Source of the DNA: Planctomycetota bacterium | Lineage (GTDB): Bacteria; Planctomycetota; PUPC01; JACPCR01 | Direction of reading: 5' to 3' | Assembly: GCA_030740295.1 (NCBI GenBank) | Contig: JASLXP010000298.1 | Span: forward strand, 1 to 16,657 | Length of the DNA: 16,657 nucleotides | Part shown: one piece after another, positions 937 to 14,751 of the stretch | How the letters are laid out: the number at the start of each line of letters is the position of its first letter | How positions within the stretch are numbered: position 1 is the stretch's first letter | Notes under the pieces: model-generated | Database searches by the model: none | What the model was told of the DNA's origin: nothing | Seen by the model: the letters and a program-made list of their open reading frames with translations, nothing else | Made by a program: the position numbers and the translations under genes

Positions 937-1123
937 GCTTTCACCCATCATCGTCGTCCGGCAGTTATGGGAGGTCCATCTCTCTCGATGATAGAGCGTC
1001 CGTGTAAGCTCTGCAAAGCGGCAGGGCCGCTCGTTTCCAGGCGACGATTGGCTGAAGGCCGGCCTCTCGTTGACGCCCGCACAGCCCCGCTGCTAGGCCA
1101 CCAAGACGGAGTCGTTCTGACGG

Positions 1124-1338
1124 TTTTCAGGGGCGAAGCCCCGGGCTGTTTGCCTAGCCCAGCCCAACGGGCTGGGTGAATGGTACAACGATTTGAAAAG
1201 GGGCAACGCCCCGGCCATTTATGAGGAGGCCATTCATTGGGGCAAATGACCGGGGCGTTGCCCCTAAGGATGATCTGCCCGAAAACCCAGCCCGCTGGGC
1301 TGGGCTAGGCAGACGGCCCGGGGCTTCGCCCCTGAAAA
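1124..1338. repeat. 215-bp nested inverted repeat (MITE/REP-like)
   Basis: The outer arms 1124-1177 and 1285-1338 are reverse complements over 54 bp with 3 mismatches. An inner pair, 1199-1220 and 1244-1265, is complementary over 22 bp with 1 mismatch. The outer arms contain smaller hairpins of the form ggggcgaagcccc and cccagcccaacgggctggg; the inner arms contain ggggcaacgcccc. With looser matching (tgac + 2 differing bases) the outer arms extend about 6 bp outward. No clear target-site duplication is seen and no protein is encoded. It is probably a non-autonomous mobile or REP-type element, and as RNA would form a long stem. It could also end transcription from one or both sides. Confidence 0.85.
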
Positions 1339-1421
1339 TTGTCATTCAAATCCGTAAGATTGCCCTCGTCTCGGCCTGCCAGGCTTGCATTCATGCTCGA
1401 GAACGCTCCTGAAATTCCTTG

Positions 1422-10456: not shown

Positions 10457-11545
10457 TTACATCCGAAGCGCCTCGAGTGCTTCCCAAATGAATTCAACTC
10501 CGTGGCCGGGACGGCTTGGAGCGGAGGCGAAGCCTTCTTTGATTTCGAGTGGGTGTTGGATACAGGCGTCGAGGCCGAAGCCGTGGGCTTCGAGGTAGGA
10601 GCTGTTGGGGATGGCGGCGAGGAGGTGCACTTGGAGGTCGTGAGCGCCGTGGGTGGTAACGGGCAGACCGCGCGATTCTGCGAGCCTGGCGATCTTCAGC
10701 CACGGGGTGATGCCGCCGCAGTTGGCCACGTCCGGCTCGGGGAACGCTGCGCCGCCGGCGGCGAGGAGCTTTTCAAATTCATAGACCGTGTGGAGGTTTT
10801 CGCCGGATGCGACGGGCAGCGCGCCTTCACGCTGGATTCTGGCGTGGCCTTCCATGTCATCGGGGATAGTCGGTTCTTCAAGCCAGTAGACGTCGTGCTC
10901 GGCGAAGGCATGTGAGGCTTCGATGGCCTGATCGACGCTCCAGCACATGTTGGCATCGACCATGAGCGGAATGTCCGGCCCCAACAATTCGCGCATGGCC
11001 GCGACGCGCTCGACATCCTCGCTGATGTTCTGCCGGCCGACTTTCATTTTGATGGCTCGGAATCCTTTATCGAGGTTGCGGCGTGTCTGTTCACGAAGTT
11101 CATCGAGCGGCAGGAGCAGATCGATGCCCCCGGCATATGCTTTCACTTGGTTGTCCGTCCCGCCGAGGTGTTGCCACAACGGTTCGCCAGCAAGCTTCGC
11201 CTGCAGATCCCAGAGAGCGATATCGATGGCGGCCATCGCAAAGGAGACGATTCCACCGCGGCCAACGTAATGCATGTGCCACCACATCTCGTCCCAGAGT
11301 TTTTCGATCTGGTCTGGGTTTTTGCTGATCAGGAACGGCGCCAGGTCATTCTGCGCCATCGCATGGATCGCCGACCCGCCCATGCTGCCAACTGTGTAGG
11401 TGTAGCCGATGCCCTCCGCACCTTCGTCGGTGAGGAGGCGGACAATGACGACTGCAAAGTGTGTCATCTCGCCGTGGGTTGAATCGGTGAGTGTTTCAGG
11501 AAGCGGGATGAGGTAGTGATGTGATTCGAGGTGTTCGATTTTCAT
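10457..11545 (-). CDS. Mandelate racemase/muconate lactonizing enzyme family protein, probable acid-sugar dehydratase
   Basis: 362 aa, full length for the enolase superfamily. It has an N-terminal capping domain (to about residue 120) and a TIM barrel. Every residue of the mandelate racemase subgroup is present at mandelate-racemase numbering +2: KxK bases K166 and K168 (IKMKVGR); metal ligands D197 (VDAN), E223 (LEEP) and E249 (ASGEN); the D272-H299 dyad (EPDVAN, TTHG); and E319 (LEAHG). Such enzymes abstract a proton alpha to a carboxylate at a Mg2+ centre, and most bacterial members dehydrate aldonic or aldaric acids to keto-deoxy sugars in the cytoplasm. The N-terminal layout (GxGYTYT; YVGRGG; IDIALWDLQAKLAG) resembles L-talarate/galactarate dehydratase, but the substrate is not fixed. 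The Shine-Dalgarno is weak. Upstream lies 735 bp of repeats, so it probably has its own promoter. Confidence 0.93.
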   Translation of the reverse strand: MKIEHLESHHYLIPLPETLTDSTHGEMTHFAVVIVRLLTDEGAEGIGYTYTVGSMGGSAIHAMAQNDLAPFLISKNPDQIEKLWDEMWWHMHYVGRGGIVSFAMAAIDIALWDLQAKLAGEPLWQHLGGTDNQVKAYAGGIDLLLPLDELREQTRRNLDKGFRAIKMKVGRQNISEDVERVAAMRELLGPDIPLMVDANMCWSVDQAIEASHAFAEHDVYWLEEPTIPDDMEGHARIQREGALPVASGENLHTVYEFEKLLAAGGAAFPEPDVANCGGITPWLKIARLAESRGLPVTTHGAHDLQVHLLAAIPNSSYLEAHGFGLDACIQHPLEIKEGFASAPSRPGHGVEFIWEALEALRM

Positions 11546-11602
11546 GTTGTTCTCAATATTCTTCGCTCAATCCCTCACGGGCCTGCAGTGCAGAGCCTTC
11601 TT

Positions 11603-11638
11603 CACCATCCGGGCGAGCCGGGCGAGCCGGATGGGGTC
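11603..11638 (-). repeat. REP-like hairpin, outer copy A1
   Basis: Runs from caccatcc to ggatggggtc with the 9-bp core gggcgagcc duplicated in tandem. The arms ccatccgg/ccggatgg are complementary. On the minus strand it reads gacccc, stem, ggtgaa, the flanks shared with the other hairpins in this region. Confidence 0.85.
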
Positions 11639-11658
11639 GCATACGGCAACTTCGCAGG

Positions 11659-11738
11659 TTTAGCTCGTAGCCTCATTCACCATCCGGGCGAGCCGGCGAG
11701 CCGGATGGGGTCAGAATCCGTCAAGTCATTTACATCCA
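11659..11738 (-). repeat. Extended REP-like unit with outer copy A2
   Basis: The hairpin at 11678-11712 (caccatcc ... ggatggggtc, with an 8-9 bp core duplication) lies in a longer repeated context. It is preceded by ttagctc and cctcattcacc and followed by aatccgtcaag and a cattt/catc-like stretch. The same context recurs around A4 at 12156-12227, so the mobile or duplicated unit is about 70-80 bp rather than only the hairpin. Confidence 0.8.
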
Positions 11739-11758
11739 CGACCCTCATTCACCATCCA

Positions 11759-11766
11759 GGCAAGCT
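11759..11766. repeat. Left 8-bp target-site duplication
   Basis: ggcaagct directly abuts the left terminal inverted repeat and is repeated exactly at 12119-12126. On the minus strand it overlaps the hairpin loop (gcttgcc) of A3. Confidence 0.8.
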
Positions 11767-11818
11767 CTGTCCTTTACCCATAAGTCTCGCTGGGCAATCA
11801 GTGTTTGCCTGCCGGAGC

Positions 11819-11864
11819 GACCCCTGCCTGCTTGCCAGGCAGGTGAAGGAGGTTGAATGGTTAG
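11819..11864 (+). repeat. REP-like hairpin B1
   Basis: gacccc, then a 6-bp stem TGCCTG/CAGGCA with loop CTTGC, then ggtgaa-nn-aggttgaatggttag. The inverted partner is B4. Confidence 0.85.
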
Positions 11865-11884
11865 AAGCGAAACAGACACGCCAC

Positions 11885-11930
11885 GACCCCTGCCGCCTTG
11901 TGCGGCAGGTGAAGAAGGTTGAAAGGTTAA
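11885..11930 (+). repeat. REP-like hairpin B2
   Basis: Same flanks (gacccc and ggtgaa), stem TGCCGC/GCGGCA with loop CTTGT. Compared with B1, stem positions have changed on both sides so that pairing is kept. The inverted partner is B3. Confidence 0.85.
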
Positions 11931-11961
11931 CCCCAGCGGAGGAGAAACAAACTCAGCGAGG

Positions 11962-12006
11962 TAACCTTTTAACCTGATTCAACTGCCTGGCAAGCAGGCA
12001 GGGGTC
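11962..12006 (-). repeat. REP-like hairpin B3 (inverted)
   Basis: On the minus strand: gacccc, stem TGCCTG/CAGGCA, loop CTTGC, then gttgaatcagg. It has one change (gtt for ggt) just outside the stem. Confidence 0.85.
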
Positions 12007-12027
12007 TAGAGACGATTTTCTCTGTGT

Positions 12028-12073
12028 CTAACCATTCAACCTGATTCACCTGCCTGGCAAGCAGGCAGGGGTC
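12028..12073 (-). repeat. REP-like hairpin B4 (inverted)
   Basis: On the minus strand: gacccc, stem TGCCTG/CAGGCA, loop CTTGC, then ggtgaatcaggttgaatgg. It is nearly identical to B1, differing mainly at the two bases after ggtgaa. Confidence 0.85.
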
Positions 12074-12118
12074 TTTCAGAGTCATCATTGCCCAGCGAGA
12101 CTTATGGGTAAAGGACAG

Positions 12119-12126
12119 GGCAAGCT
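12119..12126. repeat. Right 8-bp target-site duplication
   Basis: An exact copy of ggcaagct (11759-11766), directly abutting the right terminal inverted repeat and followed by the right half of hairpin A3. Confidence 0.8.
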
Positions 12127-12155
12127 GGATGGGGTCTGGATTCAGCTTCGGCTTT

Positions 12156-12227
12156 CTTAGCTCATGACCTCATTCACCATCCGGGCGAGCCGGATGGGGT
12201 CTTGAAATCCGTCAAGCTATTTCCATT
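12156..12227 (-). repeat. Extended REP-like unit with outer copy A4
   Basis: The hairpin at 12175-12201 (27 bp, stem ATCCGG/CCGGAT, loop CTCGC on the minus strand) sits in the same longer context as A2: ttagctc and cctcattcacc before it, aatccgtcaag and a ccatt-like stretch after it. This is the undisturbed form that A3 can be compared with. Confidence 0.8.
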
Positions 12228-12280: not shown

Positions 12281-14521
12281 TCATCGTTCATCTCCTGTAC
12301 CTTCCGGGTCGTTGGTTCGCAGCCCCATCTGATCGAACGGAATCGGTTTGAAGCCGGGTACCTTGTTGAAGGCGGGGGCGTTTTGTTTCAGCGAAAGATC
12401 GCCCGCGCCCGGGTCCGCCAGTCCCGGATCGCCGGTCGTCACCCAGTTGTCGTGCGCGTCGAGCTTCCCGGAATGGTCGAAGATGCCCTTGGGTCCGGAT
12501 TCGGTGGCGAGTGGAACATTTGGGTGAAACAGCACATTGCTGTAAACGTGGCTCACCGGTCGAAAAAATTCGTCCGGCTCCTTCTTCGAGAGCCAGACCT
12601 TGAAGCCGGGGTATTTCCGGTACGGGGTCTGTTCAATTTTTCCATCGCCAAACTTGTCCCGCGTCTTGTTCCAGTGTGAGAACCACCGCTGCTCTTTAGC
12701 GCGGGCGCCCTGTCCATACATCAGAACGCAGTCGATCATCAGGTTATTGTAGGTACGGCACTCGCCACCTCCGTTGACAAGAACGGCTGGGCGCCCCGTG
12801 ACGGCGCCAACGTTCCTGAAGACGTTTCCATGGATCGCGACGCCCCAGGAAAAATTGTCCGGGTAAACACCGACAGTGGGAACATCGTGGAAGTAGTTAT
12901 AGCGGACCGTGATTCCCCGGGACTCCGCTCGGGGCCCGGTGTAGACGTAGAGGGACCCGCCATCAAACATGTGATATTTGGGCAGGTGGTGAATCTCGTT
13001 GTATTCGATGGTGACGTCATTGCTCCTGCGGATGCGGATTCCGAAGTGCGGGCCGTCGTGAATATCGCAGTGGGCCACCCGGTGGCCGACGCCATCTATC
13101 ATAACCCCAGGCAATTGCGATTTCTGGTCCCAGCCGAAATCGTGGATGTGACAGTTCACGACCTCGTTGCCGGCCGGTTCGAGGGATTCGAAGTCGCCGC
13201 CGCGCAAGTGCACGCCGTGGCCGCCGAGGCCGTGGATGTGCGAATCGAGGACGCGGACGCCTCTGCCAGTGATCGTCAATCCGCCAGCCGTGAAGTTGGC
13301 AATGGTGCAGTTGCGGATGGTGACGTCACGGCATCCCTCAATTGCGAATCCCAGCCCCCGGCCGGTCTCGAAGCGCAGCCCCTCGAAGGTCACGTTCGCC
13401 ACGCCCTGCATCTTGACCATAGGTCCGGCCAGGACGGAAAGTACTGCGGGCCCGGCATCGAACGACTTCGGCGGATAGAGATAGAGCAGGCCCCTGGCGC
13501 GGTCGATGTAGTATTCACCTGGCCGGTCGATCTCCTCGGGGATGTTCACGAAGTGGAAATGCGGCAGCCGGACCGATTCGCCCAGGCCGATGCCTGACAG
13601 TTCGGGCCGGGCGAGCGTGATCCGTTTCCGCGCGACGTCCACGGAGGCCAGCCGGTTGAAGGTCCACTCCCACGTCGAGGAGAGCACGCCGTCGAGGAAG
13701 ACGTTTCGCAGGTCGTACCAGTGCTTCATACGGTCGAAAGCGACCTCGAACGTTCCGCCTCCGAGCCTGGCTGCGACCCCGCGATCGGCCCGGTACCGGG
13801 AGAGCCTGGGGCCGGGATCGATGACCCTGGTGTAAGTCGCTTCTCCCGGCAGCCGGATGTTGTCGATGATGCGTTGAACCTCGAGCTCGTACCCGCGCAG
13901 CTTCCGCTTCGTGGGAAGGTAGTGGCGGTAGACCATGAACTCGGACTCCTCGCCCCCGTTGGGCCAGCGCGCGAGTTGCATTCGCTGGTTAGCGAAGGCA
14001 AGCGTCACCGGCGGGGTGCGATTCCATGGTTCCATGGACCAGCCGTGGCGGGTGATCTCCCCGAAGTCGGTGATTCCCTGGGCCTTCAGGTCGGCGATAA
14101 GGATGTGCTTCCCAGCGGATCGGTCCACCAGGCGCGCCAGGAACGCCCTATCGGCAGCAGGACAGAAGGAGCTCTTGGAAAGGATCTTGCCGCCAAAGAA
14201 GGTGGCCCTTTCTCCCTCAGCCGCGCGGAAGGTGATGGGCGCGGCGGCCGTGCCGGAGTCGGCTTTGAAGAGAGCGAACGGCTTATCAACGATGTAATGC
14301 CCCCCGCGGATGGTCACAGTCACGGGCCCGGCCCGGCGGCCCTCAAGCCGGCGGAGGGCGTCCCGTGCCGCGCCGAGGGACCCCAGGGGGTCCGTGGCCG
14401 TACCTGCGGCGCCGGTTTTGCCCGTGGGCGCCACGTGCAGCACTTCCGCCGGTACTGCGCCAGAGCAGAGAAGCACCAGTAATGGCAGACAAGGCGCGAT
14501 GATGGTTGCGGGATTATTCAT
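12281..14521 (-). CDS. Secreted right-handed parallel beta-helix protein, GH141-like
   Basis: 746 aa from the ATG at 14521 (an upstream in-frame start at 14593 would add 24 charged residues before the signal peptide and is less likely). The chosen start gives a clean signal peptide (MNNPATIIAPCLPLLVLLCS, cleavage near VPA-E), has AGG about 7 bases upstream, and overlaps the previous reading frame's stop as ATGA. The mature protein opens with LHVAPTGKTGAAGTATDPLG and DSGTAAAPITFRA, then LAFANQRMQLARWPNGG, the layout of secreted beta-helix glycosidases such as GH141. Rungs follow: VTIRNCTIANFT, VRVLDSHIHGLG, EVVNCHIHDFG, VTIEYNEIHHLP, ITVRYNYFHDV, VAIHGNVFRNVG. GH141 contains alpha-L-fucosidase and xylanase activities, but no activity can be assigned here. 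It is probably co-transcribed with the PQQ-like gene upstream. Confidence 0.85.
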   Translation of the reverse strand: MNNPATIIAPCLPLLVLLCSGAVPAEVLHVAPTGKTGAAGTATDPLGSLGAARDALRRLEGRRAGPVTVTIRGGHYIVDKPFALFKADSGTAAAPITFRAAEGERATFFGGKILSKSSFCPAADRAFLARLVDRSAGKHILIADLKAQGITDFGEITRHGWSMEPWNRTPPVTLAFANQRMQLARWPNGGEESEFMVYRHYLPTKRKLRGYELEVQRIIDNIRLPGEATYTRVIDPGPRLSRYRADRGVAARLGGGTFEVAFDRMKHWYDLRNVFLDGVLSSTWEWTFNRLASVDVARKRITLARPELSGIGLGESVRLPHFHFVNIPEEIDRPGEYYIDRARGLLYLYPPKSFDAGPAVLSVLAGPMVKMQGVANVTFEGLRFETGRGLGFAIEGCRDVTIRNCTIANFTAGGLTITGRGVRVLDSHIHGLGGHGVHLRGGDFESLEPAGNEVVNCHIHDFGWDQKSQLPGVMIDGVGHRVAHCDIHDGPHFGIRIRRSNDVTIEYNEIHHLPKYHMFDGGSLYVYTGPRAESRGITVRYNYFHDVPTVGVYPDNFSWGVAIHGNVFRNVGAVTGRPAVLVNGGGECRTYNNLMIDCVLMYGQGARAKEQRWFSHWNKTRDKFGDGKIEQTPYRKYPGFKVWLSKKEPDEFFRPVSHVYSNVLFHPNVPLATESGPKGIFDHSGKLDAHDNWVTTGDPGLADPGAGDLSLKQNAPAFNKVPGFKPIPFDQMGLRTNDPEGTGDER

Positions 14522-14751
14522 GTTTGGACCTGAGTATGGCCTGGACCCTCGCTCGGACGCCGGGTCCAGTTCCGAATCTCTCTCCTGTTGCATTCCCCGG
14601 TACTCAACTCCGCAAGGCGTTCAGCCAGGTCACGCAGTATTGCGATCTCGTCTTGACTGACAGGCGTTTGGATCTCGGAATTGCCCAGGTCAGAAATGGT
14701 GTCGAACCGCTGGTCGTCAGTGAATATGAAGAGGCCGTTTGGTTTGCTCAT
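14518..14751 (-). pseudogene. Sulfatase remnant (N-terminus only, large internal deletion)
   Basis: 77 codons starting MSKPNGLFIFTDDQRFDTI, the start typical of formylglycine-dependent sulfatases (PNILFIFTDDQR, holding the metal-binding DD), continuing SDLGNSEIQTP as in family members (ALGNPEIQTPN). It then jumps to an unrelated helical stretch (DEIAILRDLAERLAEL) and ends at TGA, instead of running the usual ~450-500 residues. The C-x-P/A-S-R active-site signature, where Cys is converted to formylglycine, is absent, so it cannot be an active sulfatase. GGAA precedes the ATG. The stop overlaps the beta-helix gene's start (ATGA), so translating this remnant may still help translate the next gene. 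The 55-bp gap to the PQQ-like gene upstream suggests one operon. Confidence 0.78.

Follow-up and report, generated by a model that had tools for sequence, protein, structure and literature searches.

The 16,657-nt stretch of DNA analyzed here (the window; contig JASLXP010000298.1 of the Planctomycetota bacterium assembly GCA_030740295.1, forward strand) carries eight copies of a hairpin of the pattern GACCCC–N6–CTYGY–N6–GGTGAA, one of them split by an insert, which belong to an apparently undescribed family of repetitive extragenic palindrome (REP)-like repeats in planctomycete-type bacteria. It is probable that these hairpins are handled by a Y1 (HUH) enzyme, which in relatives is a fused chain of two Y1 domains. 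Within the literature searched, the hairpins and this enzyme appear to form a system of the REP/RAYT (REP-associated tyrosine transposase) type whose tag is new and whose enzyme has a build that seems not to have been described; that literature yielded no account of REPs tagged GACC or of RAYTs of the tandem-Y1 kind.

All eight hairpins of the original prediction, with constant flanks and loop and four exactly complemented stems, are present where it had placed them. The stems are ATCCGG, ATCCAG, TGCCTG and TGCCGC, the loops are CTCGC, CTTGC or CTTGT, and the foot tetranucleotide, or tag, is GACC in every copy (in the split copy A3 once its flanks are joined). The stem in fact extends to 8 bp, since the two C that close the 5' flank pair with the two G that open the 3' flank. 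Extra pairing of GACC with a GGTC or GGTT 7 nt beyond the stem, over a 7-nt bulge, is possible, and this closure appears in the DNA fold of four of five sequences (A4, B1, B2 and rejoined A3, not B4). The fixed pattern with up to two mismatches has five matches in the window against a mean of 0.01 in 200 shuffles; a search of fixed length misses A1, A2 and A3, which are of non-standard length or split. As single-stranded DNA, positions 11580-12230 fold 24 standard deviations better than 20 shuffles, much of the gain coming from a long inverted repeat.

The four window stems alone would not prove covariation; at the sequence level, the wider genome set does. Genome contigs were scanned with the motif plus NNAGG, arm complementarity not being demanded, which returned at least 118 stretches. 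Among at least 165 occurrences (those stretches and one viral contig) the N6 arms are perfectly complementary in 123; the single match of the viral scan has non-complementary arms, and seven genomes with unpaired arms (0-4 of 6 positions; Sphingomonas, Rhizobium, Streptomyces and others) were set aside. At least 158 occurrences give 59 distinct arm pairs; of their 354 cells 333 pair, whereas 2000 shuffles give a mean of 203 and at most 231, and sliding the partner by 1-3 nt leaves 166-232 of 486 cells paired versus 468 of 486 in register. Arm pairs that differ at one base pair comprise 51 two-sided changes with pairing kept, 13 one-sided changes with pairing kept and 14 with pairing broken, counts in which copies from kin are not independent events. 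The claim that a folded form is selected or recognized was to fall if compensatory changes did not exceed single-sided ones; the 51 versus 13 seen in other genomes leave it standing, and the compensatory changes across the 59 arm pairs support it.

The matches listed fall in 30 host genomes, 28 of which are Planctomycetota, Verrucomicrobiota, Lentisphaerae or Kiritimatiellae by record titles, the remaining two being one Binatia and one Myxococcales metagenome-assembled genome. These genomes hold 1 to 275 copies each, and the reversed pattern, used as a control, has no match in any of the 32 genomes searched. The family is patchy: in a sample of 392 genomes from one phylum there are three with a match, and one of these matches is due to chance. 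Long open reading frames (ORFs) are avoided, with 35 of 170 hairpins inside them versus 75% of random positions; clusters occur in 30 of 111 loci, and neighbors less than 200 nt apart are on the same strand in 32 cases, +- in 15 and -+ in two. The palindromes of the relatives are extragenic, multi-copy and clustered, as canonical REPs are.

The link to an enzyme comes from these relatives. Y1 genes are present in all 22 genomes first tested, and the 30 best-scoring Y1 loci include none with a GACC hairpin. At locus L059, the end of a Y1 ORF adjoins a hairpin; a search with this ORF returned relatives, some weak, in 17 of the 30 genomes, and its close relatives are mostly hairpin-flanked. A second candidate, L109, which had come with L059 from a Y1 profile of mixed seeds, was rejected as an ordinary RAYT with the nearest hairpin 2.8 kb off. 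A tandem-Y1 profile built from 95 sequences delimits a clade I of 12 loci (E 1e-89 or better), of which 11 have GACC hairpins in their fetched flanks and three have stops inside the matched stretch, and several loci bear hairpins on both sides of the tandem gene. The RAYT/IS200-like transposase that had been suggested from the window is thereby found beside the repeats, in relatives. Strict CTYGY hairpins occur in 17 of 25 tandem loci (80 hairpins in 85 kb) and in one of 29 control loci, whose gene is by eye a cut-off relative of the tandem protein; shuffled sequence yields one per 2.6 Mb. Many of 13 more distant loci carry CTYGY-loop hairpins of equal stem length under a different tag. At 1e-20, the tandem profile matches 16 of the 30 hairpin genomes (10 with clade I, two with broken genes, four with other clades), as well as at least 1 of 109 and at least 5 of 106 genomes in two phylum samples, those five including two hairpin genomes; a smaller profile matches at least 3 of 392 genomes. 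Broken tandem-Y1 genes at L164/L200 (genome G006) and L160/L205 (G012) still have four and six hairpins around them. In G023 the tandem-Y1 gene contains an in-frame GACC hairpin (L150 1480-1508), by which it gains residues ahead of the FSRK motif; the same is reported for REPs in subclass 2.4 genes (PMC6006769).

The linked protein, about 265 aa long, comprises two Y1 domains in one chain according to its predicted fold and split residue pattern. The N half has Tyr122...Gln126 (Tyr-xxx-Gln) without HUH, and the C half has the HUH (His213, His215) and ends before the usual Tyr helix, so both motifs of the TnpA_Y1 superfamily, HUH and Tyr in a Y1 fold, are present in different halves. None of the four residues varies among the 95 aligned sequences, which are near homologs of L154. 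At N-half position 67, where the second His of an HUH would be expected, 76 of the 95 have Gln and three have His; three have an HuH string somewhere in the N half, and none has a Y-motif after residue 259. The whole-chain AF2 model (predicted local distance difference test score, pLDDT, 95.8) was read as two beta-alpha-beta-beta-alpha-beta-alpha repeats, and its C half aligns with ISDra2 TnpA residues 9-130. The title of the ISDra2 entry names a "Y132F mutant", so the chain stops just before that residue, which we take to be the ISDra2 nucleophile. With the N half modelled alone, Foldseek ranks 1-29 are all IS200-type transposases, and hhalign matches the N half in register to Y1 proteins of the YxxxQ type (P 2.4e-4, probability 44%). 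PF01797 scores the N half of L159 above its cut-off, those of L154 and L157 below it and that of L151 not at all; four members tested against NCBIfam fall below the cut-offs for IS200 (and for REP_Tyr_transpos where matched).

The active sites of TnpA_IS200 are composite between monomers. Here the metal-binding and nucleophile residues are split between the halves, as would be expected if one dimer site had survived, and this pattern suggests a fused dimer that has kept one of the two TnpA_IS200 sites as a single composite active site. The third metal ligand of TnpA is a Gln that follows the Tyr at a distance of about four residues (PMC6006769, section 3). In G016 and G006, sister proteins retain the C-terminal Tyr and not its Gln. 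Sister tandem-Y1 proteins at L226 1120-2037 and L135 1474-2355 have such a C-terminal Tyr (YIQDW, YLRKW) without the Gln and adjoin hairpins tagged GATG or CATC/AATC.

Foot tags in sister clades include GCTA, GCCA, GCCC, GATG and others. In the Pirellula clade tag and tail covary (GCTA/TAGC, GTTA/TAGC, GCCA/TGGT and, with one exception, ATCA/TGGT), a match read by eye with the tail 5 nt beyond the stem and wobble pairs allowed; likewise by eye, GACC pairs with GGTY 7 nt beyond the stem. For TnpA_REP, the cleaved dinucleotide changes with the tag (PMC8266576); by this logic GACC predicts GG, which is seen in most tails. Near the tandem genes of 17 loci there are 20 same-strand pairs of hairpins 65-83 nt apart; the two tags differ in 14 of the 20 and no tag pair occurs in both orders. 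These pairs resemble left and right insertion sequence (IS) ends. At L195 728-2563, hairpins of the GCCC, GACC and CTCC types alternate around one tandem gene, with GCCC followed by GACC at 83 nt three times. Around the tandem genes L196, L202 and L188 (of G025, G004 C463 and G026), seven of eight listed GACC hairpins have the tail AGTT instead of AGGT and some have the loop TTTAT or TTTA, a hint that tail and loop change with the enzyme.

We propose that the hairpins fold as single strands and are processed by a Y1 (HUH) tyrosine transposase, which would read the constant parts, namely the guide-like GACC, the mostly CTYGY loop and the 3' tail TGAANNAGG. The stem would need only to pair, and its sequence would thus be free to drift in compensated steps. 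The N domain would provide the nucleophile and third metal ligand (Tyr122...Gln126) and the C domain the HUH (His213, His215). Single-stranded DNA would be cut 3' of the hairpin, either at the guide-complementary GG or, in many planctomycete copies, at a GCTAG further down, and same-strand pairs 65-83 nt apart would mark the two ends, left and right, of a minimal unit of the IS200/IS605 type. In a separate event, a terminal inverted repeat (TIR) element landed in the apex of one window hairpin. The chances are about even for the fuller reading that joins these steps, in which bacteria of the PVC (Planctomycetes-Verrucomicrobia-Chlamydiae) type carry a separate class of single-strand transposition: a fused TnpA dimer that kept one composite site (N-half Tyr and Gln, C-half HUH) and lost the other, with a mostly constant CTYGY loop and clade-specific guides (GACC, GCTA, GCCA, GATG and others) that in some clades change with the 3'-tail target, would move units of two ordered same-strand hairpins 65-83 nt apart, and the window's units would have been picked up by a TIR element inserting into the same hairpins.

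Several observations weigh against the proposed handling by a Y1 enzyme. Complementarity of guide and tail fails for the tags GCCC, GATG, CATC and AAGC. The 118 stretches were picked using NNAGG, so tail conservation among them is biased; in loci fetched through the protein, NNAGG follows 32 of 42 GACC hairpins. The N-half model was made from a single sequence (pLDDT 64.8), and hhalign of N against C half is weak (local P 0.0096, probability 4%; global P 0.51). At L190, a clade-I locus, all CTYGY hairpins bear other tags, and in 13 loci of other clades GACC...TGAA has one match only (L201), judged to be chance; a hairpin at L197 has the GACC tag with a different tail. Eight of the 25 tandem loci are without a strict CTYGY hairpin; at three of these (L188, L189, L232) there are GACC hairpins whose loop is a different one, and at L203 there are four hairpins with the loop CCCGC. 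No tandem match was found at 1e-20 in 14 of the 30 hairpin genomes, including the copy-rich G001 (an isolate, 82 copies), G002 (89) and G005 (275), and 20 other Y1 loci of these three (11 of 13, 6 of 9 and 3 of 4, respectively) yielded no GACC-tagged CTYGY hairpin and, at one locus, a CTCC-tagged one, so these loci do not account for the copies. Finally, the tandem-Y1 gene is absent from the window; its enzyme is deduced from relatives, and a gene of this kind is presumed to be, or to have been, part of the genome.

In the window itself, a mandelate-racemase-like gene (10457-11545, -) and a beta-helix gene (12281-14593, -) enclose A1-A4, all four of which read on the minus strand. The predicted span 11603..12201 is right at its end, and its start lies 2 nt too late, since A1 (11601-11638) begins at 11601. 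A1 reads GACCCC-ATCCGG, a 9-nt core duplication, then GGTGAA with the tail GAAGG; A2 (11676-11712) has the same ATCCGG stem, an 8-nt core duplication (plus strand, GGCGAGCC twice) and the tail TGAGG...GAGCTAA, and both duplications are as originally described. A4 (12173-12201) reads GACCCC-ATCCGG-CTCGC-CCGGAT-GGTGAA with the tail TGAGGTCATGAGCTAA. Between A2 and A4 stands the split A3, its 3' half (GGTGAA side, 11748-11766) ending in the left GGCAAGCT copy (11759-11766) and its 5' half (GACCCC side, 12119-12136) starting with the right one (12119-12126). The insert between them is 352 bp long (11767-12118, no strand assigned), with perfect 32/32-bp TIRs (11767-11798 and 12087-12118) and the 8-bp direct repeat GGCAAGCT flanking it, the terminal inverted repeats and target duplication of a TIR element or miniature inverted-repeat transposable element (MITE). 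Joining the flanks restores a standard GACCCCATCCAG-CTTGC-CTGGATGGTGAA hairpin (stem ATCCAG), and the insert therefore landed in the apex of A3. It holds four hairpins of its target's family in the order ++--: B1 (11819-11847, +; GACCCC-TGCCTG-CTTGC-CAGGCA-GGTGAA), B2 (11885-11913, +; stem TGCCGC, loop CTTGT; 66 nt after B1), B3 (11978-12006, -; stem TGCCTG, with a GTTGAA variant) and B4 (12045-12073, -; stem TGCCTG; 67 nt from B3). Because the TIR element itself carries four hairpins, REPs may ride on it. The earlier statement that the element carries its own target type holds for this single copy. The TIR core (up to one mismatch) occurs in one of 392 sampled genomes, G016, as four unpartnered TIR-like ends, two of which adjoin CGCAAGCT or AGCAAGCT (the window's octamer type) and two of which do not; beyond these solo ends, no autonomous or full relative of the TIR element was found elsewhere. 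A 627-aa protein encoded in the window has no match in the two genomes searched from the order of G016. A second nested inverted repeat in the window (1118-1344; 60-nt arms 92% complementary, inner 22-nt pair 1199-1265) is GC-rich and MITE-like, and a 32-nt direct repeat (88%, spacing 37 nt) lies at 1436-1504, at the start of a 1488-aa PQQ/malectin ORF.

The core duplications of A1 and A2 may be scars of departed TIR elements that left both 8-bp target copies (9 in A1), a reading to which we give slightly less than an even chance. The GGCGAGCC GGCGAGCC of A2 occupies the exact place, and the same register, of A3's GGCAAGCT-element-GGCAAGCT, and A1 is likewise in register with A3's 8-bp target duplication; among the 162 copies of L001-L118 that were scanned, the core is 21 nt long in 159, and the lengths found in A2 (29 nt) and A1 (30 nt) do not occur. 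There are, however, two cases only, replication slippage in a GC-rich palindrome could have the same result, and A1 has one base too many.

It is rather unlikely that domestication has given the tandem-Y1 protein a function in the host and that the hairpins serve it only as sites for binding or as decoys. A single match per genome in 12 of the 16 matched genomes and patchy hairpin numbers would fit such a role, as would the TnpA_REP genes that section 3 of PMC6006769 places closer to housekeeping genes than IS; yet the four catalytic-type residues are invariant in all 95 sequences, and near-identical copies with long shared flanks in some genomes suggest spreading. We regard as still less probable, and indeed improbable, that the hairpins act as RNA (as terminators or as structures for 3' ends or mRNA stability), that ordinary duplication has spread them and that their link to Y1 is incidental. 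Their extragenic placement agrees with this, compensatory stems fit RNA as well as DNA, and side roles as RNA-level structures are reported for canonical REPs (PMC6006769, section 3). Against it stand the lack of any Rfam match in the window at gathering cut-offs, the linkage to one Y1 clade and the absence from the 30 best-scoring Y1 loci, the same-strand and inverted clusters, and the sister tandem genes that adjoin hairpins with the same loop and other tags. That the hairpins spread as passengers of the TIR element without single-strand transposition is most improbable: four of the eight window copies do lie inside it and the ++-- order recurs in Singulisphaera loci L007, L034, L066 and L115, but the TIR core is in one of 392 sampled genomes, whereas 30 genomes have hairpins, with copy numbers of up to 275; in the other loci examined no TIR start was seen next to a hairpin, and no GACC hairpin accompanies the four G016 ends within the 3.2 kb fetched.

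Processing by a Y1 enzyme, the reading we prefer, sets the family beside several known systems. It shares with REPs and their RAYT/TnpA_REP (REPtrons; PMC6006769, subclasses 2.2, 2.4, 2.5, 2.7 and 2.8) the extragenic multi-copy palindromes, the constant 5' foot tetranucleotide, the flanked Y1 gene and the direct and inverted clusters; it differs in having GACC where the canonical tag is GTAG/GTGG, in a tandem Y1 chain that falls below NCBIfam cut-offs, and in a pair distance and order that resemble IS ends. With IS200/IS605 TnpA (IS608, ISDra2) it has in common the fold, predicted in both halves, Y-xxx-Q plus HUH and a hairpin with a 5' guide-like tetranucleotide, whereas here one chain replaces the homodimer, one of two sites would be left by the residue pattern and many hairpin copies stand without a gene; as to the mobility of such a unit, several loci have hairpins to the left and right of the gene, yet most matched genomes have a single match. 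Class 3 TnpA_Y1 (Planctomycetes, Acidobacteria and Proteobacteria) is similar in its planctomycete hosts, high-copy atypical hairpins and Y motif with Gln; its proteins, however, have a median of 178 aa, HUH and Y in one core and the tag CnGA, against about 265 aa, two domains and GACC here. All of classes 1-3 of PMC6006769 have HUH and Tyr in one core domain, unlike the tandem protein. The REP-targeting elements IS1397 and IS621 (PMC1525189) are also DNA elements inserted into a REP, and differ from the 352-bp TIR element here, which has an 8-bp duplication and carries four REPs of its target's family.

Most REPs and RAYTs described so far go with a tag of GTAG or GTGG. Another tag, sister tags, a near-constant loop and a different enzyme build would make the guide model testable by comparison. 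If the fused TnpA with one predicted site is true, it would separate the question of which half gives the tyrosine from that of whether one site suffices for REPs to move, two matters that run together in homodimers. The G016 and G006 proteins, with a C-terminal Tyr and no Gln, look like intermediates, and the path from a dimer to a fused half-site may be readable from sequences.
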